Positions 15,467 to 28,236 of a DNA stretch of 28,376 bases are shown in pieces. The stretch covers positions 1-28,376 of the forward strand of contig JAJRTR010000177.1 in assembly GCA_024278215.1 (NCBI GenBank). The letters are read 5' to 3'. The notes below the pieces were generated by a model, which was not told the origin of the DNA, ran no database searches, and worked only from the letters and a program-made list of their open reading frames with translations. This stretch comes from a bacterium. Lineage in GTDB: Bacteria; UBP15; UBA6099; JAJRTR01. A program made the translations under genes and the position numbers. Each line of letters opens with the position of its first letter. Position 1 is the first letter of the stretch.

Positions 15467-18400
15467 TCAACTCTTTAAAGTTTTGTTCAGTAACTTCTTG
15501 ATATACTGATTCTTATCATCCTTCTGGAAGAGGACATGGCATTTTTCTAAAACCTTCTTTTCTATGCCGTCACTCCACCATGATACCTGTCGGTAAGGAG
15601 TGTTCGATATTATGAAAGAATTCAGTGTTATTTCGGGATCGCTGAGTTGGGTTTCGATTTTCTTGATGTCTTTGTAAAATCGGATTTTTGGATCGTTAGG
15701 TCCTTCTAAATTTCTAATCCCTTTAGGATCGACAAAACTGATGTATTGTTTTCCTTCAACCAGAAGCCAGATAATGAAATCAGGATAGAAATTACCAGCT
15801 TCAAAGAAACCGATACCCCGGCCACGGCTCAGGTTTCTGAGCAAATAAAGTTCCTTGCCCTCGAAATAGTCGGGCTTTCGTTCACAGAATTGCTGTAAAT
15901 CCAGTACAAAGTCCCGTTCGCTTTCAGTTTCAAGGATTACAGGTTTGACCTCAACAAAGTCGCTTTTCACATATACAAGAGGAGTGTAAAGATGCCTGTT
16001 GAAATTGATCGCCCTTAAATTCTGAAATTCAAAATCTGAAAGTTTCCCTGACTCAACAAGTTCTTTCAACTCTCCCAATTTATCCACAATATCATCACGT
16101 GACTGCTCGATGAGGAAGAGATATTCTTCAATGAAATTGTCATCATCAGGTGTGAGTTCTCGATATTCCAGATGATCACTCTCGAATTCTTCTTTCCGGA
16201 ACTTGTAATAACGGTCACAGTATTTTTTCAGAAGCACGAGCGCAACTTCCTGCCAGCGCCTGAACTGATCAAAGGACCTGAATTCCAGCTGATCGGCGGG
16301 AATAAAAAGACGATACCATTCGGGCTCGGAGAGCAGATCATAAATCTTTTCACGTGATAAATTCAAATTGTACCACGCTCGCTCATTTTTGAACTGCTGC
16401 ATTTCAAAGTAAATCTCATTTATATCCATGAACGAGATGTGCTTCTGTTCAAGTTTCCCTTCGTTTTTAATTGCTAATTCGACTTTTCCAGCCCCGGCTC
16501 CTGCGGAAAGTGCCTGGAGCTTGGGATACCAGTCAACTACGATGGGATTTTTTGTCAATCTGTCATCCGGCATATCCAGAACAGGCTTTTCCCCATCTTT
16601 TTTGAAGTCTACGCCTTCTTTCAACCGGATAGTCTTCAATTTTTTCTTTCCCAGGTTTTCTATAACCGGAAGAACGAATTCGATTCTATCCTCATTCGCA
16701 GGGAGCCCCTCGTCCTCAAGGTATTCTTTAAACTGGCGCATATAATCTGCACGGATACCAAAAATGTTCAAGGATTCAAGAATCTCAATTTTATCAGGAG
16801 GTTTTGCTTCTGGAATTCGGTGGCTTCGCTTCAAGCTAAAATTCATTCCCTTGAGTCTGACCCCTCGACCAAAAAGCTGTATTATTTCAGAGCCTTCCTT
16901 TTTCCCAATATTCATAAGGCCCATCGTGCTTACACGCCAGCTATTCCAGCCCTGGGAAAACTTTTTTGACCCAATCAGAATGTTAATGCTTGATGTGGAT
17001 TCATTCAGTGTATGAAACAACGAGCCGGAGAATTCTCTATCTGTGACATTTAGTTCATTCTGCTCATCACACAATTTGCACAAAGCTGGGGCATCACCGA
17101 CGTTTATCAATCCGAACGGCTCGTTCTCACCGAGCCGGAGCGCAATTTCCCCTTCGGAACCTTTTAAATGCTCGACATGGATTGCCGCCGTTGAAGATGA
17201 ATTAAACAGAACCCTCAAAATGTCCTCATATACTTGATCTCCGGATAGTCCAAGTTTATAGAGGTAAGTAAACGCGCCACTGAAAAGTTCATTTCCTTTT
17301 GCATCAAGTAATCCGGATTGCCCTTTTAGAAAATGTTCAAGGTGTGAAACTGTAACCGCCCGATTTTTCACAAAGTCTGCCATGAACAGCAGAATATCGA
17401 CGACGTCCGATACCTTCCTGCGGTTCTGAGTTCTTACCGCATTTACACTGCCACCGACAAAAATCCACAGCGGTCTCTCAATCAGGTAGGGCCGGAATTC
17501 TTTCTGCCGTTCCGAGTACAATTTCTGTTGCTGGTAATATGCAAGAAGACAGGCCGTCAGATATCGCTGTCGAATCTCTTCGTCAGAGTCATCGGCAAGA
17601 TTGAGAATTCTATAATCTTTGCCATAACCGTCAGAATAAAAATACTTGTATGAATAATCAAATAAGACACATTTCGTATATGTCTGTTCGAGTTCCTTAC
17701 TTCCACTGGCCTTCATAGCCTGGCCGAATGTCGCGGAGTATTCGAACGAAAAACCGTCTTCACACAGCTGGTTGCGCTTTGTGATCCATACACCTATCTT
17801 CTTGCCGCTTGTTCCACGGTGTCCCTCGTCAACAAGAACCAGGTTGTTTCCTTCGAAAGACTCTACGGCGACGGTTTTTTCTCCCATCTCATCGCGGAGT
17901 TTTGTGATTTCAATAATCTCCACCGATCCACTGGAGAACAGCCCGCGACTGTCTTTGGAGAATATTTCCGCTCGTATGCCGGAAAGCTTAAATTCCTCCA
18001 AATGCTGTTGAGAAAGCCCCTCATTCGGCGTAAGCAGAATTATTCGATTCAGTTCATTTTCCCGGTTATTCTTTTCGAGATAATGCTTGTACTGGAGTAT
18101 ATTGATATGCGTTATGAGCGTTTTTCCAGACCCTGTAGCGTTCCAGTAGGCAATTTTGTTCAAATCCTTCAACTCATACGGTTTGATCTGATCTCGTTCC
18201 TGTTTCCATTCATTGAATGTCTGAACGTGCTGATTCAGACTCTCAAGCAGTTTTTCCGGATCGCGAAAATACCGGTCAAGATAAATCTCTGTGAAAAGAA
18301 GCGATAGATACTGAAAATATTTTGGGTGCAGGATATGCCCCTGAAGGTTCCGCTTCTCTGTTATTCTCTTCCAGTATCGGACAATGTTTTGATCATACTC

Positions 18401-18637
18401 AAGAAGCAGGTCGGGAGGCAATTCCGGATGCTCGAAAAGCTGCGCCCGGAGGACATAATGAAACTTCGAGATATTGTCCTCATCAAAGCCTTCAAGCTCC
18501 GGCGTTTTCAGGTTCACCGTCAGTGCATCGAAGCTCGCAACCTCAAACAGGCTGAGCAGCCACTGGTTCAGAACCAGTTTCTCATGAAATTTAAGTGGTT
18601 TTTCCAGTTTCTTATTTTTCAATTTCGATTTTCCCAT
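15467..18637 (-). CDS. res: Type III-like restriction subunit: SF2 helicase with C-terminal nuclease (Res, 1056 aa)
   Basis: An N-terminal region (1-150) leads into a superfamily 2 motor. Walker A is ATGSGKT near 167-173, motif II DEGH near 270-273 (HRGTSGKK follows), motif III-like FEYSATFGQ, and motif VI IIQLFGRGVRLKG. The C-terminus carries a PD-(D/E)xK-type nuclease candidate: P952-D953 in FYPDFIIWL and D970-P-K972 in FVDPKG. The layout is that of type III Res: DNA translocation followed by cleavage, acting with Mod. I start at ATG 18637, 2 bases after the DUF4276 stop; the longer frame to 18688 would overlap that gene by 49 bases. It is the last gene of the operon. Unlike textbook type III loci, it is separated from mod by two other genes. 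Confidence 0.88.
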   Translation of the reverse strand: MGKSKLKNKKLEKPLKFHEKLVLNQWLLSLFEVASFDALTVNLKTPELEGFDEDNISKFHYVLRAQLFEHPELPPDLLLEYDQNIVRYWKRITEKRNLQGHILHPKYFQYLSLLFTEIYLDRYFRDPEKLLESLNQHVQTFNEWKQERDQIKPYELKDLNKIAYWNATGSGKTLITHINILQYKHYLEKNNRENELNRIILLTPNEGLSQQHLEEFKLSGIRAEIFSKDSRGLFSSGSVEIIEITKLRDEMGEKTVAVESFEGNNLVLVDEGHRGTSGKKIGVWITKRNQLCEDGFSFEYSATFGQAMKASGSKELEQTYTKCVLFDYSYKYFYSDGYGKDYRILNLADDSDEEIRQRYLTACLLAYYQQQKLYSERQKEFRPYLIERPLWIFVGGSVNAVRTQNRRKVSDVVDILLFMADFVKNRAVTVSHLEHFLKGQSGLLDAKGNELFSGAFTYLYKLGLSGDQVYEDILRVLFNSSSTAAIHVEHLKGSEGEIALRLGENEPFGLINVGDAPALCKLCDEQNELNVTDREFSGSLFHTLNESTSSINILIGSKKFSQGWNSWRVSTMGLMNIGKKEGSEIIQLFGRGVRLKGMNFSLKRSHRIPEAKPPDKIEILESLNIFGIRADYMRQFKEYLEDEGLPANEDRIEFVLPVIENLGKKKLKTIRLKEGVDFKKDGEKPVLDMPDDRLTKNPIVVDWYPKLQALSAGAGAGKVELAIKNEGKLEQKHISFMDINEIYFEMQQFKNERAWYNLNLSREKIYDLLSEPEWYRLFIPADQLEFRSFDQFRRWQEVALVLLKKYCDRYYKFRKEEFESDHLEYRELTPDDDNFIEEYLFLIEQSRDDIVDKLGELKELVESGKLSDFEFQNLRAINFNRHLYTPLVYVKSDFVEVKPVILETESERDFVLDLQQFCERKPDYFEGKELYLLRNLSRGRGIGFFEAGNFYPDFIIWLLVEGKQYISFVDPKGIRNLEGPNDPKIRFYKDIKKIETQLSDPEITLNSFIISNTPYRQVSWWSDGIEKKVLEKCHVLFQKDDKNQYIKKLLNKTLKS

Positions 18638-18639
18638 AA

Positions 18640-19326
18640 TCAACCTGTCGCTTCGATTCGTTCCAGCCACTCCCCGAAATGGCGACACTTAGTTCTCATT
18701 CTTTCCAGACCGATATCCATTGCAATCAGATTGCCATAAATGTCCTTGTTATAATCAGGAATTACCTTTGATATTCTTCGGTTAGGGCATGTATCGCGAT
18801 TGTCGTTTATTTCTTCGGGATTCCTGAAGTGATTCAAAACACCCACAAGCTCCTGTAAAGCTTTTTGATAGCCCTCAGCGCTTTCATCCATTGTGGTCTT
18901 TACAATTTGTTCCGGCGAAGAAAAAAGAAGCGATTCAAATTCATGAAGCATCAAATATGGATAAAAACGTTGATTATCTATGTCGGTTTGCAAATGTGTT
19001 TCTAAATGTTCTATTCTGTCGTATCGCGATACTGTTTCAAGATTATCAATGGTGTCCATTCCCGGGAAACGTCTATCAAGCGCATAATAATCGAACATGG
19101 TAGTAACCATACTGGATTCTGAGTCATTCAGGAGTTCGAGAATCTGCTTTCTCACACGTGGATAAGGTAATATGCCGCCTTTGCAATCAGGTCCGTTCAG
19201 AACCCTCTTTGATTTTAAAATCACAGGAATCATGAAAATATCAAAACTAAGGAGGTGAGGCCGAATAATATTCTTCACAAACAATTCTTCAGTTTGCCCC
19301 TCGACAAGAATCAGTATCTTATTCAT
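18640..19326 (-). CDS. DUF4276 family protein, TOPRIM-like candidate nuclease (228 aa)
   Basis: It opens with KILILVEGQTEELFVKNI, where Glu9 lies in the position of the TOPRIM glutamate. TTMFDYYALDRRFPG (Asp79) and LMLHEFESLLFS (H128-E129, E131) follow, and these are the hallmark motifs of DUF4276. TOPRIM-type proteins paired with OLD-type ATPases act as nucleases in Gabija, OLD and PARIS-like systems; the same role here is inference. It is separated from the ATPase gene by one base, with ribosome site GGGGGAGG inside the end of that gene, and lies 2 bases before res. It is about the usual size for the family. Confidence 0.85.
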   Translation of the reverse strand: MNKILILVEGQTEELFVKNIIRPHLLSFDIFMIPVILKSKRVLNGPDCKGGILPYPRVRKQILELLNDSESSMVTTMFDYYALDRRFPGMDTIDNLETVSRYDRIEHLETHLQTDIDNQRFYPYLMLHEFESLLFSSPEQIVKTTMDESAEGYQKALQELVGVLNHFRNPEEINDNRDTCPNRRISKVIPDYNKDIYGNLIAMDIGLERMRTKCRHFGEWLERIEATG

Positions 19327-19327
19327 T

Positions 19328-20443
19328 TCACGGCCTCCCCCCGATAATATTCTTCTCCCATATTTCGCCCATCGAATAGTTTTCTCTCCATCCGGCTAAT
19401 TCATCAGCCACAAGTCGCCTGAACGTCGATTCTCTACCTTCTCTTTCAACCACGATAATATGTTCCGGTTCGAAGTGATCAATAAAAGCAGAAGATTGTG
19501 TGGCCAGAATGACCTGGCAGTGATTGGAAACACTTTTAATCATTCCGGAGAGAATCGTAATCGCTGATGGATGCAATCCCAGCTCGGGTTCATCAATTAT
19601 CATAACAGAAGGAAGCTTTTCTTCAGGTTGCAGCAAGAGTGTTATCAGTGCCATCGTTCGCAACGTCCCGTCGGAAGCCTGGCCCGCTACGAAGTTCATA
19701 TCGGAACCTGTTTCGTTCCATCTCAAAAGAACGCTGTTACTGTCCGGTTCCAAAATAAAATCCTCGAAAAACGGGGCTATCATTTTCAAGGTTCTTACAA
19801 TAAGCCTGTAATTCCTGGGATGGTTTTCTCTTATCCAGAGAAGATACGGCGCCAGATTGGCCCCGTCTCCCCTGAGATACATATTCTCATTCACGTTCCA
19901 GTGCTGCTTGATTTTCGCTTCATCCGAGGTGTCGTGAAACTGGAATGCAGCACATTGTTTAAGTAATGAATAAATATAGCTGGCGGTTTTAGCGGTTTGA
20001 CTGTCACTTCTTGCTTCCTCGATAAGCATGGATTCCTTATGCCCGGAACCGAGAGAAATAAACTCCGTGACCGGATAACCGGTTTTTGTAAAATTGTATC
20101 CCTCATCCATAAAGACAAATTTGTCTGCCGCGTCACGCGCAAGTGCCATTTTGTATTCATTCAGCCCCTTCGGCGCTTGAAATTTCAAATGCGCTTGCAC
20201 CTGTGACGTTGTTTTCGGGCCTTCAAACATATGCAGTGCAGCGCCGCCTCCTTTTCCTACAAAACTCTGAAGTCCGCCCGTGCCGCCTGTCATCCAGTTA
20301 AGCAGTTTGAAAAATGATATGAAGTTTGACTTGCCCGCTCCATTCTGGCCGATAAGAATGTTTATGGATCGTAATTCGAAATCATCCAGCTTCTTAATCG
20401 ACTTGTAGCCGGAAAGACAAACTCCAGTAAGCTGTTTATACAT
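19328..20443 (-). CDS. OLD/RecF-type AAA ATPase (371 aa), partner of the DUF4276 protein
   Basis: An ABC-like ATPase head with a short insertion. Walker A is GQNGAGKS (32-39), preceded by LSGYKSIKKL as in AAA_15/AAA_21 proteins. The signature loop QASDGTLR, Walker B VMIIDEPELGLHP and H-loop region ILATQSSAFID follow. It has no fused TOPRIM domain; that part is supplied by the next gene. Start ATG 20443 is chosen for its ribosome site GAGGAGGA (about 20450-20457); the longer frame would overlap mod. Such ATPases sense an invader-linked signal (phage nuclease inhibitors, DNA ends) and release or activate the partner nuclease in PARIS, AbiL and Gabija. The specific trigger here is unknown. Confidence 0.88.
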   Translation of the reverse strand: MYKQLTGVCLSGYKSIKKLDDFELRSINILIGQNGAGKSNFISFFKLLNWMTGGTGGLQSFVGKGGGAALHMFEGPKTTSQVQAHLKFQAPKGLNEYKMALARDAADKFVFMDEGYNFTKTGYPVTEFISLGSGHKESMLIEEARSDSQTAKTASYIYSLLKQCAAFQFHDTSDEAKIKQHWNVNENMYLRGDGANLAPYLLWIRENHPRNYRLIVRTLKMIAPFFEDFILEPDSNSVLLRWNETGSDMNFVAGQASDGTLRTMALITLLLQPEEKLPSVMIIDEPELGLHPSAITILSGMIKSVSNHCQVILATQSSAFIDHFEPEHIIVVEREGRESTFRRLVADELAGWRENYSMGEIWEKNIIGGRP

Positions 20444-20474
20444 ATTTATTTCCTCCTCATTCAGTCTTTCTCCC

Positions 20475-23400
20475 TTATATGTCTTCCACGTCAAACATTA
20501 GTCTCTGGAACTCTGATTCTATTAGTCGTACTTTCCAGGTTTCGTCCTGACGGCGCAGATTTTCCAGGTTGTTGTCGCCGTTTACGTATATCAGATCGAA
20601 TTCCATGTCTTTCGGATTATATTCCTGTTTCCTGAAAAATTTATCCAGGTCTTCGTTCGATTTCTCTTTAAGGTTGCGCCAGATAATGAGAACTTTCTCG
20701 CCGTCCGGATTCGTGCCCTGTACGACACGGAAACCGCGAATGAAGTCGATGTGCTGAACAGTCAAACCGATCAGGTAGTTGAACGTCTCCACCAGATCAA
20801 TGGTCTGAAGCTTTGTTTCGCCGACGCTGCCAGTGGAAATCTTCATTTTGTAATTGAACGGGTCTTCGAAAGAATCGATATTCAGCAGTGATGCGCTACC
20901 CGCGCTTTCAACGTCCAGCATGTATGAAAGAATGTAATCTTCACGAACTCCCGGATGCTCTTCAAGCACGAGTTCCTGCTCCTCAGATCGCTTCATCTCA
21001 AGATTGTTGGTCGCATCTTCATAAGACTCCAATCGAATATATTTGAACATGTGACTGGAACCTTCACGTGATACAGGCTTGCCGCCTTTCCAATCCTTTG
21101 AATATATTGCTTTCATGATTCGGGGTTTTAATACAGTATCGAAATGCTCGCCCATCTCAACGAGAATATATTTCCGATTACCGTCGTCTTTTCGATTTAG
21201 ATTAATAACTGCGTGTGCAGTTGTTCCAGAACCTGCAAAGAAATCAACTATCGACGATTCTTTGGTGCAATTTGATGCTCTGAGGCAGTCTTCAACAAGA
21301 TGTATACTCTTAGGATACGAGAATATCTCCCTTTCACAAAGCATGCTTTTGACAACGCTTGTTCCGCTCTCAGTTGCTGAGTATTTCGCATCGTCCCACC
21401 AAGTTCCTGGTAGTGCTCCATCTTGATTAGCATAGTACTTCCTATAAATCTGCCATCCATCCCCCACTATCTTCGTTATGAGATTTGACGCTGCTTCCTT
21501 CTGGGCTCTTTCCCATCCCATGTTCCAAACACGTTCATTTCCTTCAGAATCCATAGGATAAATGATGGTTTCGTCAGGTTTGTGAGGTGTGATAGGAACC
21601 CATTTTCTCTGTGTGTTGGACCATTCCATGGAGGAAATACGAATAACACCATCTTTTGAAATAAATATTGGATAATATAATTTGGGTCTATCAATTCTTG
21701 CTGATCCAGCTCCTGTCTTTCGGAAGTTAATCCACGTAAAAGTTCCTTTCTCATCTGATTCTGGATAACGGGCATTTCTTCTCTCATCACGCGGCAATCG
21801 ACCAACAACAGATCGTTTTGTTTTTGCATAGAAAAGTGCATATTCATGATTTGTTGAAAACCCTGCAGCCATGGCTCGGCCATGTGGATTACTACGAACC
21901 GGAACAGTAGCGAGATGATTCTCTTCTCCAAATATTTCTGATAGAGATTGTGTGAGTACTGGCAGTTCAAAATCGTCAATCGCTACGCAAATAATGCCTT
22001 CATCTTTCATCATCGGAAGCGCATTATATAGGCGTTCATTTATTAGACTTAGCCATGAAGAATGTCTGTAGTCATTCTTGTATAGAATCTGGGTCGCAGC
22101 TGTATTAAAAGGGGGATCAATGTAAATGCATTCGATATTGGAATGGTGCTTATCCTGAAGTAACCTAAGCGCTTGTGAGTTCTCACTTCTAACGAGTAAG
22201 CCATTACATTTCTTGCTAACATCATAAACAGATGCCAGAAACATATTTATGAACTTCGTATTGAAAATTTTTGTATCTAAAACCAAATATTTGTTTTCCT
22301 TCAAAAATTTGATAGTTAGTGGCTCCGAAAATCCTTCGGTCGCAAGATCACCCTTAATCTCATCAATAGCAAAAAGCCTTACCCATTCTTCGCGTTGAGC
22401 GTCGTTTGCAGCGATCTCAGGGTACAGTTCCTCCGGCACTCGGTCGAGGGTAACGCAGTAGTTTGTTTCGACTACGAATTTCTTTTTCAGCCATAGTTTT
22501 TTCTGGAAGTTTTCAAGGCTTTCGAGAAAGGTGATTATTTTGTGTGCGATTTTTCGTATGACTTTAATTTTGCTGAGATACTGCTCGACGCGGGGAGCAG
22601 TTTCGTGCTCGATGTCGTCGAGGTGCATGATCTCATTTTTAATGAAGAAATCGAGCTCTCTTCTCAAGAAGCCGCCAAGGTCTTTGTGGATGAAATAATC
22701 GAATTCATTGCGTGCCGTGTAGTCCGTAAGATACTTTTCGAGAACCGTTCGATCCGGGTTTTTCTCTGTTGGCATTTTATCTGAAAGGAACGTGCTCCAT
22801 TCGGAGAAGCCCTGAGTGGAGAGTATGGTTTCAACCGCTTTTTCGTTCAGATTCTTCTGTTTTCGTTTTTCATCATCCGGTCTGTATTCGAAGCGGATAT
22901 ATAGTTCATCATTTTCTTCATATAGCGGATCATCTTCACAAAGAATGAAGCGCCGGTCGTTACCGTTCGAAGCTTTCATATTATCTTTTTCCGTGTCGGC
23001 CTCGATGAGCTTGAAATGCACACGTTTGCCGTTGGAAAGCTTGAAAGTGTAATCCCTGAAGTATTCAGACGTTTTGATGTAATACTGGTCTTTATTTGCC
23101 CAGTGCAGCATTACTTCCTCGCCGCTGTAGGGTATGGAGTATACCCCTTCCTTATAGCGTCGGAGAGAAAGAAAGTCGCCGCCGTGATAATAACGCCTGA
23201 AAAAGTTGTATAGATCGGAATAAACTTCGTTTTCCAGTTTTGTAATATCGAAAGCCCCGGCCATTTTCGCCCTGAGTTTTTTTACCTTGTCAGTATCTTC
23301 AGGATCAACACCGCCCAGGCTTTTCGCCTGCTCGATGGCTTCATTCAGTTCCTGTTTAATGAGTGACAAATCCGAATCCTGGTATTCCTCGAATGCGGCC

Positions 23401-23552
23401 TTAACCTGAGGAAGGAGGTCGTTGTCCAGAAAGCGAGTAATATCATCACGCTTTTGGTTCATAATTCTATATATGCCAAAATCGAGATCGGCCTGATCGA
23501 GCATAAAAAGCTCGGAGATCAGGCGTTTCAATTTTTCAAGTTTTTCAGACAT
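20475..23552 (-). CDS. mod: Very large type III-like DNA methyltransferase (Mod, 1025 aa)
   Basis: A beta-class amino-methyltransferase: catalytic motif IV DPPF at 479-482 (IYIDPPFNTAATQ) precedes the S-adenosylmethionine motif I at 770-778 (DFFAGSGTT). Target adenine methylation is most likely from the D-P-P-F form. The protein is far larger than classical Mod subunits of about 600-700 residues: about 450 residues precede the catalytic core (including FRRYYHGGDFLSLRRY and a helical region) and about 200 follow it. The N-terminal part probably carries target recognition or complex contacts; that is inference. Start ATG 23552 is 3 bases after the antitoxin stop, with GAGGG (about 23560-23564) as ribosome site. 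Its methylation would protect host DNA from Res. Confidence 0.9.
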   Translation of the reverse strand: MSEKLEKLKRLISELFMLDQADLDFGIYRIMNQKRDDITRFLDNDLLPQVKAAFEEYQDSDLSLIKQELNEAIEQAKSLGGVDPEDTDKVKKLRAKMAGAFDITKLENEVYSDLYNFFRRYYHGGDFLSLRRYKEGVYSIPYSGEEVMLHWANKDQYYIKTSEYFRDYTFKLSNGKRVHFKLIEADTEKDNMKASNGNDRRFILCEDDPLYEENDELYIRFEYRPDDEKRKQKNLNEKAVETILSTQGFSEWSTFLSDKMPTEKNPDRTVLEKYLTDYTARNEFDYFIHKDLGGFLRRELDFFIKNEIMHLDDIEHETAPRVEQYLSKIKVIRKIAHKIITFLESLENFQKKLWLKKKFVVETNYCVTLDRVPEELYPEIAANDAQREEWVRLFAIDEIKGDLATEGFSEPLTIKFLKENKYLVLDTKIFNTKFINMFLASVYDVSKKCNGLLVRSENSQALRLLQDKHHSNIECIYIDPPFNTAATQILYKNDYRHSSWLSLINERLYNALPMMKDEGIICVAIDDFELPVLTQSLSEIFGEENHLATVPVRSNPHGRAMAAGFSTNHEYALFYAKTKRSVVGRLPRDERRNARYPESDEKGTFTWINFRKTGAGSARIDRPKLYYPIFISKDGVIRISSMEWSNTQRKWVPITPHKPDETIIYPMDSEGNERVWNMGWERAQKEAASNLITKIVGDGWQIYRKYYANQDGALPGTWWDDAKYSATESGTSVVKSMLCEREIFSYPKSIHLVEDCLRASNCTKESSIVDFFAGSGTTAHAVINLNRKDDGNRKYILVEMGEHFDTVLKPRIMKAIYSKDWKGGKPVSREGSSHMFKYIRLESYEDATNNLEMKRSEEQELVLEEHPGVREDYILSYMLDVESAGSASLLNIDSFEDPFNYKMKISTGSVGETKLQTIDLVETFNYLIGLTVQHIDFIRGFRVVQGTNPDGEKVLIIWRNLKEKSNEDLDKFFRKQEYNPKDMEFDLIYVNGDNNLENLRRQDETWKVRLIESEFQRLMFDVEDI

Positions 23553-23555
23553 TAT

Positions 23556-24668
23556 TCAGCCCTCGTTCTCTTCGCTTTCTTTAAGTACGAATTTGATTTT
23601 CAGATCATTATGCCAATTGAAAGGGATACGTTTTTCATGTTGCAGACGTCCGACAATGATTCCGGGTGCGATCCCCAGATCAGAGGAAAAACTGCGGATG
23701 TCGTCTTTATAGAATCTTTTTCTTTTTAAGAAGCGGTTGTATTCCTTTTCGGGAACAAGCGTGTTGGCGGCAAAACGGTTTGCCTCTTCTTCATCTTCGC
23801 TGCTTGCGTTTCCGGGATTGTGTTCATCGAGGAAAAGCTGTTTCTTGCCGTGGAGCAGAATGTGGGCGGATTCATGGAAGAAACTGAACCAGAAATGGTC
23901 GTCTGACTTATGCCGAAGAGAAAGCATGATTAAGGCTTTATCTTTATGTAACCAGCGTGTTGCGCCGCTTAAATGAGTGCCGGGCAATTCAGAAACGAAA
24001 ACGAGCGCAACACCGGAATCGGCGCATAGCTTTTTCATTGCAGGATCGAAAGCGGAAGGTGGTTGATTGGTGAGAGAACGTATCTTTTTCAGGGCGGAGA
24101 CAAATTTATCTCTATTGTAGGGAGCTGTTTCTATCGACTGAGAAATGATGTCACCGATTTTCAGCCATGCCGCTACCGATTCGGGAGCACTGTCGAAAGA
24201 AGGAGATTCCCTGAACAGAATCCCCATTTCCTTAAATTGTGAATCCCATGCGGTGAGAGAACCGACCGCGAAAAAATCCAGTAGCTTATTAACGGCATCA
24301 ACATTATTTTCCGGCTTCTCGATGAAGCCTCTTTTTACGAGTTCCTTGACCGGGAATCGTTTTGTCCAGGCAATTCTCCTTTGCATTCTTTCTTCTGTAG
24401 CCTGTTTTGCCATGAACAATCTGTAAGAGGCGTCGAGATTGTTCCATACGACAGCTGAAACACCCAGAACGTGCTCCAATTTAATAGCCGTTTCCGGCTC
24501 GATGGGAGCTTTCCCGTTTATTATCTGGCTCACGGTTTTCACGGAAAGTCCGCAACGATCAGCAAGGTCTCTTTTTTTGATTTTTCTTGCCTCAAGAGAT
24601 TCTTTAAGAATCTCCCCGGGATGAACCGCATAATCCGGTGTGAATTGATATGAGGATTGTTTAGCCAT
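23556..24668 (-). CDS. higA: HigA-like antitoxin: XRE helix-turn-helix fused to ImmA/IrrE metallopeptidase (370 aa)
   Basis: Residues 15-75 are a Xre/HigA helix-turn-helix (VHPGEILKESLE, then RDLADRCGLSVKTVSQIING). Residues about 200-330 are an ImmA/IrrE-type peptidase with zinc-binding HESAH (H265, E266, H269) and the downstream helix EDEEEANRFAANTLVP that supplies the third ligand. The start overlaps the toxin stop by one base (TAATG). ImmA/IrrE proteins cut repressors after a stress signal, and XRE-ImmA fusions often serve as antitoxins to HigB/RelE toxins. Here it may also regulate the operon. Its place between the SNF2 gene and mod, 3 bases before mod, suggests it belongs to the system rather than being a passenger. 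Confidence 0.88.
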   Translation of the reverse strand: MAKQSSYQFTPDYAVHPGEILKESLEARKIKKRDLADRCGLSVKTVSQIINGKAPIEPETAIKLEHVLGVSAVVWNNLDASYRLFMAKQATEERMQRRIAWTKRFPVKELVKRGFIEKPENNVDAVNKLLDFFAVGSLTAWDSQFKEMGILFRESPSFDSAPESVAAWLKIGDIISQSIETAPYNRDKFVSALKKIRSLTNQPPSAFDPAMKKLCADSGVALVFVSELPGTHLSGATRWLHKDKALIMLSLRHKSDDHFWFSFFHESAHILLHGKKQLFLDEHNPGNASSEDEEEANRFAANTLVPEKEYNRFLKRKRFYKDDIRSFSSDLGIAPGIIVGRLQHEKRIPFNWHNDLKIKFVLKESEENEG

Positions 24669-25003
24669 TAGTGGTAATCCTCCACTTTCAAGATAGTGAT
24701 TGCCGTGATTTGTGACAGATCGTCTCCAGCGTCCGGCTTTTTCGGAACGGGATCGTGATCTGGAATAAAAACAAGCCGGAAGGGATGTTTAAGGTAAACG
24801 GCATACTGTCCTTTTCTATTCCCTTTCAATTCGTGTCTCTTCTCAGGAGGAAGATGAGTCACATCCTCCAGCGTAGGCGCCGCCTGCAGGACAGCCATTC
24901 GGTTCATTATTGTTTTTGCCATTTTTCCGCCATAGGCAGTATGTAAACCGGCACTTGAGCTAAAGGTCTTGCACAACTTTTTGTTTTTAAACCCAATATT
25001 CAT
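24668..25003 (-). CDS. higB: HigB/RelE-like toxin (111 aa)
   Basis: A small basic RelE-superfamily fold: MNIGFKNKKLCKTFSSSAGL, a central helix TIMNRMAVLQAAPTLEDV, and the catalytic sheet RHELKGNRKGQYAVYLKHPF with FRLVFIPDHD, which corresponds to the HigB/'killer' family pattern (H-x-L-K-G...P-x-R-L-x-F). Such toxins cut mRNA on the ribosome. The start is ATG 25003, since the longer TTG start lacks family similarity; AGGTAAAGG (about 25016-25024) may be the ribosome site. The gene overlaps the antitoxin start by one base. Toxin-first order is normal for HigBA. Confidence 0.85.
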   Translation of the reverse strand: MNIGFKNKKLCKTFSSSAGLHTAYGGKMAKTIMNRMAVLQAAPTLEDVTHLPPEKRHELKGNRKGQYAVYLKHPFRLVFIPDHDPVPKKPDAGDDLSQITAITILKVEDYH

Positions 25004-25045
25004 AGTAACAGAAAAACCTTTACCTGACAAGTAAAGTAAAAAGTA

Positions 25046-27916
25046 TCATACAACGCTCCATTTTATAGTAAACAACGGCTCTACGGACGTTTTGTGAGCC
25101 ATTCTTTTTTCAAGAGACGATATGAGCGAATCCCTTTTTTCCATTATTTCGTCTTCTACGTCAAATATTTGCTGTCGCTGGCGGCGTTTTTTCTTTTCCA
25201 ATTCACGGATGCGTTCTTGTATCTTATGCTGCTCATCAATCGTAGGAGCTTGTCTTGCCTGGCGGTTAAGAGCCTTTATTCGGTTTTTTGTGTCCGATAA
25301 TTCTTTTTCAGCGGCAATGACCATGTCTTCTGCCCATTTCTCAAGCCGCTCGCGTTCTTTACAGAAATGTTGATTGTTGGCTTCCAGAGAACGGCTGAGA
25401 GTCGCTTTTGCATGACGTTTTGCCTCTTTCTCCAGTCGCTTTTTTATATCAGGTATTATATCCTCGTGATGAGACACTTTGCCCAGGCAATTGAAAATCT
25501 TCTCGCATGTCTCCTGGTTAAGCGATTTTCCGTGACCATCAATTCCTGAAAATAACAGATGCTCTTCTCGTTCAAATGAATCTATAATCATGTACTGTAA
25601 AATCAGCCATCCGGACTGGCCTTTGAGTTCTTCGACCAGTGATATTTTTACCGGATGATTTGAAATATCGAATTCGACGTGGGCAAGCGAAGTTTCAAGG
25701 TTTTTTCCTGTCTCAATTACATATTCACCGAGTGGATGCGAAAGACGGTATAGAAACTCTCCAGGAATGTTGTCTTTTTCTTTGGAGATCAGGCGATAGA
25801 GTCCTGGCCTGATGTTCTCACAAGGTGGACTGAGCAGTTCGAAACTGAGTTCCGGATCAATAAAATCAGCATTGCTTTCAAGAATAAATTTTGTGAGAAT
25901 CCAAAACATTCTGCTGAAACTATCTAGCTTCTGGCGGGTTCCCTCAAGATTCACTTTCAGACGATTATGAACATCTTCATCGAAGTGCTCCAGAAGAATG
26001 CTACGAGTTTCATCCATTTTGCTTTGTATGGATTCTTCCATTTCTTCCTGGAGTTTGCGAAATGCGTCTTCAATTTCATCCTTAGTTCTGCATAGTTGGT
26101 ATATATCAAATATTCTCTTCTCGAAATCCACACCGGATTCTATCGTGCCGAGCACCTCGTCGGATGCGCCAAAAACACCACTGAAAAGTCGGAATTTTTC
26201 ATTCAACAGCTCAAATACGCGCTGGTCAACTTCGTTGCGCTTGTTGAGAAAATTGATTACGACCACATCGAATTTCTGACCGTAACGGTGACAGCGTCCT
26301 ATGCGTTGTTCAATCCGCTGTGGATTCCAGGGTAAATCGTAATTTATTACGAGTGAACAGAACTGAAGGTTGATCCCCTCTGCGGCTGCTTCTGTAGCCA
26401 GCATTATACTCGCATTGTTTTTAAAGTAATTAATTATGGCTGTTCTGGCATCAATTACGCGTGATCCTGAAGAACGTCCGGAATCAATATTAGCGTCCGC
26501 CCATCTCTGATAAATCGCTTTTGAATCGGGGTCTGCATTAGAGCCGTTAAAAGTGATTACCTGGTCTGCATACCCGTTTGACTCAAGAAAATCTTTCAGG
26601 TACTTTTGCGTTCGAAGTGATTCCGTGAAGATAATGGTTTTTCTTTTTGCCCCCATTTTCTCCATTTCTGAGAAACCGATCTTTAATGCTTTTAAAAGAG
26701 CATGGCTTTTCGTATCAACACCAATGCTTCTCGCCCACTGAATATAACGTTCGAGTTCTTCTATTTCCTCGTTTAATTTCTTTTCATCTATTCCTGTTGT
26801 TTTTTTCTCTGAATCCGAATCATCGTCAGGTTCTTCATCAGATAGGATTTCATCAAGAAGCTCATCTTCCATTTCTTCCTCTTCAATTATTCTTTCGGTG
26901 ATATTCTCTGTGGTGGGTAAGCCATCCCTCATCTTCAGTAGGCGGTCTTTCATTACCTCCAGTGTTCCGGCAACCGCCAGAGAAGAGGAGGCAAGAAGCT
27001 TTCTGAGAATCAATATGGTCAGGTGACGATGTTGGGTGGGGAGGGCGTAAGTGTCTTCTCTTTGCAGAAAAGTCGAAATCGCTTCGTATAATTTGTGCTC
27101 TTGTTCCGTTGGAGAAAAGGGGCGAGTTATTGTACGACGTTCTGTGTACTTGATATATTCGATAACTTGCTTTCTCAGGGTACGAACGCAGAATGAACGA
27201 ATACGATTGCCAAGAGAATTAAGGTCAGCAGTTGCTCCCGTGTACTGAGAGCGGAAAGAGATTAAGTCTCCGAACATATTCTCATCAATGATTGATGAAA
27301 GGCCGTAGAGTTCCAACAGTGAATTCTGAAGAGGAGTTGCGGTAAGGAGTATCTTCCGGGTATCTTCAAGCGCCCATCGTATGTTCTGCCCCATAACATT
27401 ATTGGGTTTATAAGCATTTCGCAACTTGTGAGCTTCATCAATGACAACAAGGTCCCAGTTAGGAATTCGGACTTCCTCTCTTTTGTTGCTGGCAAAGTTT
27501 ACAGAGGTGATTACAACTGCATCTGACTCAAAGGGATTTTGATTCCCGCCTGCCTGTGCCTGCCGATATGATTTTGCATCGAGAATAAACGTCGGCAAAT
27601 TGAACTTTTCTTGTAACTCCAAGCTCCATTGTTTTCGTAAAGAGGCGGGGCAGATAACCATGAGCCGACGGCGTTGCTCGGCCCAAAACTGACAAAGAAT
27701 CAAACCCGCTTCAATTGTTTTTCCAAGGCCGACTTCATCTGCGAGCAGTGCTCCCTTTGAGATAGGTGAACGGAGAGCGAATAGAGCAGCTTCAATCTGG
27801 TGAGGATTGAGGTCGACGCATGCATCAAAAAGGGAACGGGAAATACGTTCGACGCCTTCGCCACCCCGTCTTGTTAGTTCATACGCAAAATATCGAGCAT
27901 GATAGGATGTGCTCAT
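25046..27916 (-). CDS. SNF2/HepA-type helicase-translocase (956 aa)
   Basis: An SNF2-family motor: LNPHQIEAALFALRSP, Walker A DEVGLGKT (60-67), motif II DEAH (160-163, VVIDEAHKLRN), motif III LTATPLQNS, motif V AAEGINLQFCSLVINYD and motif VI QRIEQRIGRCHRYGQ. An acidic insertion (EEEEMEDELLDE-like, near 340-370) separates the two motor lobes. The C-terminus ends in a long coiled coil (about 840-940). SNF2 proteins translocate on double-stranded DNA and remodel bound proteins. HepA-like versions occur in DISARM and in unnamed methyltransferase-linked loci. Start ATG 27916 has GAGGAAA as ribosome site. No nuclease motif is seen. It probably loads or remodels the restriction complex, or inspects DNA. 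Confidence 0.9.
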   Translation of the reverse strand: MSTSYHARYFAYELTRRGGEGVERISRSLFDACVDLNPHQIEAALFALRSPISKGALLADEVGLGKTIEAGLILCQFWAEQRRRLMVICPASLRKQWSLELQEKFNLPTFILDAKSYRQAQAGGNQNPFESDAVVITSVNFASNKREEVRIPNWDLVVIDEAHKLRNAYKPNNVMGQNIRWALEDTRKILLTATPLQNSLLELYGLSSIIDENMFGDLISFRSQYTGATADLNSLGNRIRSFCVRTLRKQVIEYIKYTERRTITRPFSPTEQEHKLYEAISTFLQREDTYALPTQHRHLTILILRKLLASSSLAVAGTLEVMKDRLLKMRDGLPTTENITERIIEEEEMEDELLDEILSDEEPDDDSDSEKKTTGIDEKKLNEEIEELERYIQWARSIGVDTKSHALLKALKIGFSEMEKMGAKRKTIIFTESLRTQKYLKDFLESNGYADQVITFNGSNADPDSKAIYQRWADANIDSGRSSGSRVIDARTAIINYFKNNASIMLATEAAAEGINLQFCSLVINYDLPWNPQRIEQRIGRCHRYGQKFDVVVINFLNKRNEVDQRVFELLNEKFRLFSGVFGASDEVLGTIESGVDFEKRIFDIYQLCRTKDEIEDAFRKLQEEMEESIQSKMDETRSILLEHFDEDVHNRLKVNLEGTRQKLDSFSRMFWILTKFILESNADFIDPELSFELLSPPCENIRPGLYRLISKEKDNIPGEFLYRLSHPLGEYVIETGKNLETSLAHVEFDISNHPVKISLVEELKGQSGWLILQYMIIDSFEREEHLLFSGIDGHGKSLNQETCEKIFNCLGKVSHHEDIIPDIKKRLEKEAKRHAKATLSRSLEANNQHFCKERERLEKWAEDMVIAAEKELSDTKNRIKALNRQARQAPTIDEQHKIQERIRELEKKKRRQRQQIFDVEDEIMEKRDSLISSLEKRMAHKTSVEPLFTIKWSVV

Positions 27917-27966
27917 CTCGTTGATTTCCTCTTTTGTGATATTTTCTTTTCACCTTTCCCAGAAAC

Positions 27967-28152
27967 CTATGTTTCTTCTCCGCCACCTTTTTCCACCCAT
28001 TCATCGATTTCAGAAAGTCTGAATCGCAAAAGTCGCCCAACACGGTGTGTTGGAAGTCCACGTCTCTCTACCCATCTGTATATGGAATCCTTGGCAACAC
28101 CAAGATGAGAGGCTACTTCTTCAACACTGACCCATCGTTCTTCAGCACTCAT
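27967..28152 (-). CDS. Excisionase-like helix-turn-helix DNA-binding protein (61 aa)
   Basis: A winged HTH of the excisionase/MerR-like small type: WVSVEEVASHLGVAKDSIYR, WVERRGLPTHRVGRLLRF, then RLSEIDEWV. The pattern is that of 'excisionase family DNA-binding domain' proteins. Start ATG 28152 has GAGG at good spacing. It is the first gene of the eight-gene operon, 50 bases before the SNF2 gene. No integrase is present in the window, so a regulatory role for the operon is as likely as an excision role; adding a stalled recombinase or a plasmid origin is not supported. Confidence 0.85.
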   Translation of the reverse strand: MSAEERWVSVEEVASHLGVAKDSIYRWVERRGLPTHRVGRLLRFRLSEIDEWVEKGGGEET

Positions 28153-28183
28153 AATTACCTCACTTTAAAATGAAGAAACACAA

Positions 28184-28216
28184 TCTATGACAATGAAAAC
28201 AAACTCAAGTCTATGA
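28184..28216. repeat. Direct repeat TCTATGA x2 in the operon control region
   Basis: TCTATGA at 28184-28190 and again at 28210-28216, 26 bases apart, with the second copy overlapping the proposed -10 box. It could be an operator for the first-gene HTH protein or the HigA-like protein. Two copies of a 7-mer can arise by chance. Confidence 0.3.
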
Positions 28217-28236
28217 AAGTGGATTGAATCTGTCAA
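28208..28236 (-). promoter_or_regulatory. Candidate promoter of the defence operon
   Basis: Read on the minus strand, a perfect -35 box TTGACA (28236-28231) is followed after 17 bases by TAGACT (28213-28208), a 4 of 6 match to the -10 consensus. Transcription would begin about 28200, leaving a roughly 48-base leader before ATG 28152. It is the only good -35 box in the control region. Confidence 0.5.

Follow-up and report, generated by a model that had tools for sequence, protein, structure and literature searches.

A stretch of 28,376 nucleotides of bacterial DNA (hereafter the window; contig JAJRTR010000177.1 of assembly GCA_024278215.1) carries an eight-gene operon in which the conserved unit is the three genes SNF2-Mod-Res, an SNF2 motor followed by the methyltransferase (Mod) and restriction subunit (Res) of a type III-like enzyme, and not an eight-gene system. 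We read the locus as a modular restriction operon in which this core is joined by two embedded, self-contained modules, a HigB/HigA-ImmA toxin-antitoxin pair between SNF2 and Mod (slot 1) and an ATPase-DUF4276 pair between Mod and Res (slot 2), which most likely serve as abortive-infection backups, and we give this reading a probability of about 0.7. The further idea that the modules guard the restriction complex itself is tentative, and we would place it somewhat below even odds. The window is one entire contig (C155) of a 4.5 Mb draft genome; the host's own phylum comprises seven genomes only, and close relatives contributed little.

A scan of 84,980 species genomes using the SNF2 protein as bait yielded 80 loci, 74 of which have Mod after SNF2 on the same strand and 54 of which have both Mod and Res, and the loci without the full triad after SNF2 lack it mostly because their contigs end there. 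The hosts of the core belong to the Nitrospirota, Planctomycetota, Thermodesulfobacteriota, Myxococcota, Pseudomonadota and Verrucomicrobiota, and also to the Acidobacteriota, Chloroflexota, Bacillota, Actinomycetota and Synergistota; since dozens of unrelated genomes have the core genes in this same order, the arrangement is not due to chance. In order to avoid bait bias the searches were repeated with Mod and Res as baits, and annotated plasmids were read. Loci with a long Mod found with these baits had SNF2 adjacent in about 21 of 25 cases (decayed copies included), none of four loci with a short, EcoP15I-size Mod had such an SNF2 neighbour, and a bare HTH-SNF2-Mod-Res set (HTH, helix-turn-helix) was present on conjugative enterobacterial plasmids, with few relatives in viral collections. 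The pairwise distances of SNF2, Mod and Res correlated across 45 loci (r 0.79, 0.82 and 0.93; permutation p 0.0005, which is the floor), a correlation that partly reflects the shared ancestry of neighbouring genes and hence is evidence of common inheritance rather than of contact. The recognition region of Mod was nearly uncoupled from the core (r 0.14–0.21), as expected if targets are swapped. On a Conchiformibius plasmid (L104:8001-17349) the triad runs Mod-Res-SNF2, and is thus rearrangeable yet kept together.

All eight genes lie on the minus strand, in the order HTH, SNF2, HigB, HigA-ImmA, Mod, ATPase, DUF4276 and Res, with the following features:

28184–28236, minus strand: candidate operon promoter, TTGACA-17-TAGACT over a 12-nucleotide direct repeat, suggestive only
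27967–28152, minus strand: small excisionase/MerR-type HTH protein (HTH_17), probable regulator, accessory
25046–27916, minus strand: SNF2 motor of RapA/DrmD type, core gene 1
24668–25003, minus strand: HigB/RelE-like toxin (alternative upstream TTG start at 25030)
23556–24668, minus strand: HigA-type HTH fused to an ImmA/IrrE metallopeptidase, antitoxin of the embedded toxin-antitoxin pair
20475–23552, minus strand: Mod, type III-like DNA methyltransferase of 1025 amino acids, core gene 2
21318–21995, minus strand: predicted target-recognition region of Mod, residues 520–745, hypervariable
19328–20443, minus strand: ABC-type ATPase (HEC-01A; AAA_21), putative sensor and partner of the DUF4276 protein (alternative TTG start at 20494)
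18640–19326, minus strand: DUF4276 protein (HEC-01B), predicted TOPRIM-type effector of the embedded pair
15467–18637, minus strand: Res, type III-like restriction subunit with a superfamily 2 (SF2) helicase and a C-terminal PD-(D/E)XK nuclease, core gene 3

With ATG starts assumed, the order of the eight genes on one strand and the gaps of 50, 42, -1, 3, 31, 1 and 2 bases given in the original prediction were reproduced exactly. The gene content of its operon span (15467–28236) was likewise correct, but 28236 is not a gene end: the HTH gene starts at the ATG at 28152, and 28236 is the first base of the promoter-like TTGACA. Its family labels were borne out for HTH_17, SNF2, N6_N4_Mtase, HTH_3 with Peptidase_M78 and DUF4276, all above their Pfam cut-offs, and only weakly for HigB, whilst the type III-like Mod/Res core that it named is supported by both profiles and motifs. 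The 'OLD ATPase' with a TOPRIM partner is supported as an ATPase with a predicted TOPRIM-type effector, except that the ATPase itself is an ABC/AAA_21 protein without a TOPRIM domain of its own, the TOPRIM domain being predicted in the next gene, DUF4276.

The SNF2 protein scored above its Pfam cut-off, matched the DrmD_b and DrmD models (2.8e-204 and 1.1e-203 respectively; PADLOC/NCBIfam) and resembled RapA by sequence and by full-length Foldseek comparison; its structure model was mediocre (predicted local distance difference test, pLDDT, 72; predicted template modelling score, pTM, 0.42) and was used solely for this overall likeness. Its Walker A, DEAH and motif VI sequences are intact. Mod matched the PADLOC model MTase_III (1.1e-240) and, in the PDB, Mbo45V (1.9e-38) and EcoP15I Mod (3.6e-26), and has the motif order of the beta class, YIDPPFNT and then DFFAGSGTT. 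The region between these motifs, residues 520–745, is hypervariable, with a mean pairwise difference of 0.78 against 0.46 in the remaining Mod. Long Mods also share a conserved N-terminal region of about 440 amino acids (window 20478–23552, Mod residues 1–440) which has no Pfam match and is absent from EcoP15I-size Mods; this region accompanies the SNF2 gene. Res matched REase_III (2.8e-250, PADLOC) and Pfam ResIII, with no sequence match in the PDB, and carries the motifs ATGSGKT, DEGH, SATF, GRGVRLKG and PD(952–953)...DPK(970–972), which are largely conserved in a 64-sequence alignment. The SNF2, Mod, Res, ATPase and ImmA parts all retain intact catalytic motifs, and judged from sequence the encoded proteins would have the enzyme activities of their families.

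On the basis of these protein families, Mod would methylate the target that its swappable recognition region selects, thereby marking self DNA, and Res, with the SNF2 translocase, would attack unmodified DNA through its PD-(D/E)XK nuclease. SNF2 is probably a DNA-tracking motor, clearing or coupling translocation, and would be required for restriction. At the level of sequence the operon fits the definition of a type III restriction-modification (RM) system, with additions; the full definition also includes an asymmetric site, methylation of one strand, and cleavage that depends on two inverted sites and ATP. It shares with EcoP15I and Mbo45V a beta-class Mod with a central target-recognition domain, a Res with an SF2 helicase and a C-terminal PD-(D/E)XK nuclease, mod before res on the same strand (with two genes between them in the window) and PADLOC matches of at least 1e-240 strength. 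It differs in the length of Mod (1025 amino acids against ~570–645, and so ~400 longer), in the linked RapA-type SNF2 gene and in the cargo between mod and res. The CglI/NgoAVII systems have a DEAD-family ATPase as their third protein and a nuclease of another family than that of the window. What they have in common with the window in composition is a methyltransferase, a nuclease and an extra helicase/ATPase protein that is needed for cleavage (PMC4267653).

Both gaps of the core hold changing cargo. Of 69 loci, 17 have extra genes in slot 1, and 31 of 53 have them in slot 2; both slots are filled in 8/50 loci and both are empty in 16/50, and on a concatenated-core tree of 60 loci the slot-2 label requires 24 changes. 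The contents represent a dozen or more unrelated families of defence or toxin proteins: DUF1016/YhcG nucleases (14 loci), Fic proteins (8), 23S_rRNA_IVP-type four-helix proteins (5), SLFN_AlbA proteins (4), the ATPase-DUF4276 and HigB/HigA-ImmA pairs, and, as single cases, GmrSD, a GajB-like helicase, AIPR/AbiU, Abi_2, HNH, DUF4143, DUF5131, DUF3800, a PLD-like protein and a sigma factor. Proteins that combine SLFN_AlbA_2 with HATPase_c_4 recur in slot 2 of L018, L053 and L055 and in slot 1 of L033; they have no clear PADLOC assignment and are a candidate unnamed effector. Four slot genes have no Pfam match (L047:12914-14170, L013:8272-9093, L005:7833-8546 and L080:12795-13388), the first and third of these no PADLOC match either, and they are candidates for undescribed defence proteins. 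Decaying cores may keep an embedded module, as in L098, with a broken SNF2 and Res, and L102, with an SNF2 remnant, which suggests that cargo can outlast its core.

The tight spacing on a single strand and the intact motifs would be compatible with the original prediction that the eight genes form one integrated new system in which all are needed jointly. The comparative data nearly refute this, and we consider it very improbable: amongst the loci read, the full eight-gene set and its order occur in the window alone, the core is conserved without the other genes, and these occur without the core, the HTH gene, HigB/HigA and ATPase/DUF4276 coming and going and both modules turning up elsewhere as independent pairs. 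The tie between the SNF2 motor and the methyltransferase, also part of that prediction, is supported by the conservation of the core.

The ATPase of the slot-2 module matched HEC-01A (1.9e-133) far better than AriA (9.6e-28), also matched MAD3 below its cut-off (PADLOC/NCBIfam), and carries the Walker A and Walker B motifs IGQNGAGKSN and DEPELGLHP. It is followed directly by the DUF4276 protein (PF14103, 1.4e-52, above the cut-off; HEC-01B, 6e-74, PADLOC), which is the arrangement of the candidate system HEC-01. For the DUF4276 protein a TOPRIM domain of the kind found in OLD and AriB is predicted, on the grounds of a Foldseek search, a second structural alignment and the invariant motifs EGxxE and DxY. 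Foldseek alone was modest (best E 6.6e-4), but in the second alignment an AlphaFold2 model (pLDDT 89) matched OLD C-terminal domains (Z 9.0), AriB (Z 8.2) and GajA of Gabija (Z 7.5), the top 13 structural matches all being OLD, PARIS or Gabija TOPRIM proteins (Z 6.3–9.0), with unrelated folds starting at 5.8. With the fold so predicted, the pair looks PARIS-like. The alignment with AriB begins at residue 1 against residue 18 and would place E9 opposite AriB E26, the residue changed in the E26A mutant that served as an inactive control (PMC12409363). PARIS (AriA-AriB), OLD and Gabija share with the window an ABC ATPase followed by a TOPRIM protein, predicted as such in the window; the effector differs, being DUF4276 here, without a PADLOC match to AriB, and PADLOC assigns the pair to HEC-01. 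PARIS is further characterised by being activated by a phage protein and by setting free a tRNA nuclease.

Relatives of the DUF4276 protein were found in 26/398 Pseudomonadota genomes, and in all 20 of the 20 Pseudomonadota loci read the ATPase lies directly upstream. Several of these pairs adjoin housekeeping genes, and at one locus (L138:4023-9770) the pair is flanked by the two halves of a split methionine synthase, one being the homocysteine methyltransferase part and the other the B12/pterin part. Nostoc, Acinetobacter and Piscirickettsia have plasmids on which the pair occurs by itself. On Aeromonas veronii pHX3 a short-Mod system has it between its Mod and Res genes, and on Aeromonas media pE31A it forms part of an HTH-SNF2-Mod-ATPase-DUF4276-Res set, without HigBA. 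On A. media pMC64A (L112:4117-10166) it belongs to a further RM-like arrangement, of a WYL regulator, SNF2, ATPase, DUF4276 and a methyltransferase fragment, which is broken by insertion sequences. Pairs on IMG/VR viral contigs (L121:4898-6657 and L122:4892-6669) raise the possibility that phages or prophages carry the module as well. The ATPase tree mixes free-standing, slot-2 and other-RM copies. Six core-tree loci carry the pair in slot 2, with six changes forced by supported branches, so the pair most likely entered this slot repeatedly, although the count cannot separate gains from losses.

In slot 1, the HigB protein scored below the Pfam cut-off for HigB-like proteins (1.7e-4; 22.4 bits against 27) and had no PADLOC match; it matched the killer protein 6f8s_B in the PDB (5e-4), and relatives that are 59–60% identical stand beside HigA-ImmA in L005 and L098. 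The HigA part matched TIGR02607 (1.6e-16, above the cut-off) and HTH_3 (above the Pfam cut-off), and the ImmA part Peptidase_M78 (6.7e-11, above the cut-off), with HExxH present as FFHESAH. A HigB-like toxin is therefore followed by a HigA-family antitoxin, the order of a HigB-HigA toxin-antitoxin pair. PD-Lambda-2 was considered and set aside because its B component alone was matched, by HigA-ImmA (2e-42, PADLOC), and its other components were not. In the window, L005 and L098 this pair fills slot 1, in L014 it fills slot 2, and it also stands alone outside the core.

We propose that both modules are probably co-transcribed with the core, in which case core and modules would be co-regulated, and that they are most likely triggered once a phage has blocked or outpaced restriction. 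On detecting a phage product, the ATPase would set free a caged DUF4276 TOPRIM nuclease, as AriA does with AriB (PMC12409363), and HigB would act as a translation-blocking toxin controlled by the protease-domain antitoxin HigA-ImmA. That restriction is backed up in this way by an effector and a toxin is a reasonable inference. That such modules are embedded among restriction genes agrees with the guard idea, for which PrrC in EcoPrrI (PMC12707154) and the DarTG2-RM island (PMC12255303) are precedents. In the latter, RRDM, a DarTG2 toxin module lies inside the restriction operon between hsdS and hsdR and a small regulator (RptR) comes first, and PrrC is likewise embedded in its restriction operon; both differ from the window in being type I RM systems with other toxins and in having a demonstrated function.

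Several observations weigh against this reading. T7 Ocr does not inhibit type III enzymes (PMC12707154), so the PARIS trigger is not directly transferable and another anti-restriction product or DNA state would be needed. Four long-Mod loci (L090, L109, L110 and L124, comprising L090, two haloarchaeal plasmids and one viral contig) have no adjacent SNF2, which is accordingly not strictly obligatory, and the order of the core in L104 is a different one. Both modules are autonomous, and so may need nothing from the restriction enzyme, their co-location possibly being hitchhiking. An operon of type III-like restriction genes with passengers, in which the gaps are insertion hot spots and the cargo shares transcription and has no functional link, describes the same anatomy and differs on the guard role alone; we hold it, as the main rival, to be nearly as likely as that role, and the confidences overlap. 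In its favour, each module is found by itself at other sites, some of them amid housekeeping genes, and the slots turn over fast and are often empty, as described above. It does not readily explain why the ATPase-DUF4276 pair, in six core-tree lineages and in L102, is always in slot 2 and in the same orientation, never in slot 1, why a short-Mod system, too, has it between Mod and Res, or why the identified slot contents are mostly toxins, nucleases and defence-linked families and not random genes.

A divergent DISARM, MADS or Hma/BREX-related system would account for the best SNF2 match (DrmD), for the match of the HTH protein to MADS1 and for those of the ATPase to HEC-01A and also MAD3, but we regard it as scarcely credible. 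Type 1 DISARM (DrmD) does have a DrmD-type SNF2 motor beside a DNA methyltransferase; the NCBIfam scores, however, were below their cut-offs (DrmD_b 680.8 bits against 950, DrmD 299.7 against 610), and with the Pfam, PADLOC and NCBIfam models no separate DrmA, DrmB (DUF1998) or DrmC (PLD) gene was found in the operon, which has the Res nuclease instead. One DUF1998 gene was detected in the whole genome, and it lies on a different contig (C161, 784 amino acids); the window's own contig stops 224 bases upstream of the HTH gene. No MAD2, PglZ, BrxC or DUF499 gene was matched in the operon either, in line with the original prediction that BREX and DISARM partners are missing from it, and on complete plasmids the bare core occurs without any such partner in its vicinity. 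MADS, which is counted among the ATPase-TOPRIM systems (PMC12409363), shares by NCBIfam names an HTH protein, a methyltransferase and a MAD3-like ATPase, and was rejected on its scores (MAD1/MADS1 67.9 against 80, MAD3 89.5 against 420) and for want of a match to any other MAD model. The Hma/BREX-related operons, from which HEC (Hma-embedded candidate) takes its name, also combine an SNF2 helicase with a methyltransferase and host embedded modules (PMC8565338, PMC12839542). They differ in carrying a DUF499 ATPase (HmaC), for which there was no Pfam match, and neither HmaB nor HmaC was among the PADLOC matches listed, whilst SNF2 matched HmaA at 1.6e-52 compared with 1e-203 for DrmD.

Returning to the modular restriction operon, annotation tools would probably report its parts separately, as a type III RM system, a candidate HEC-01, a HigBA pair and a stray DrmD-like helicase. 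On comparison, the 'stray' helicase turns out to be part of the restriction core in most relatives, and the intervals between core genes to hold changing toxins and nucleases. The pieces are known, but an incomplete search of the literature turned up no name for a triad with such slots for cargo, and no published description of an SNF2-Mod-Res system or of DUF4276 inside a type III RM system, though an earlier description is possible. A stronger version, in which SNF2-Mod-Res is a distinct, widespread and unnamed type III-like subtype with SNF2 as a working subunit and with slots dedicated to interchangeable effectors wired physically or functionally to the restriction complex, the enzyme being the sensor and the cargo the executioner, seems to us unlikely. 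The locus offers a simple, testable system for asking whether genes embedded beside a restriction enzyme act as its guards, in the manner of PrrC, or just accompany it, and it predicts that the uncharacterised slot proteins are defence effectors.

The remaining features concern the upstream end and composition of the operon. The HTH protein matched HTH_17 (1.3e-15, above the Pfam cut-off) and MADS1 (6.5e-19, below its cut-off), and was excluded as a member of the core since only 9 of about 92 loci have a relative of it upstream of SNF2. Its gene lies close to the end of the contig, 224 bases upstream. Scans with Rfam and for tRNAs gave no matches, and promoter and terminator scans were at chance level: TTGACA-17-TAGACT, with 10/12 matches, was the best of 20 promoter-like sites where 22 were expected by chance. 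The GC content of the operon is ~40–45% against ~47–57% for the ordinary metabolic genes of the window's first 11 kb, which suggests horizontal acquisition. A 12-nucleotide direct repeat (28184–28195 and 28210–28221) lies over the -10 region, and is possibly the operator of the HTH protein.

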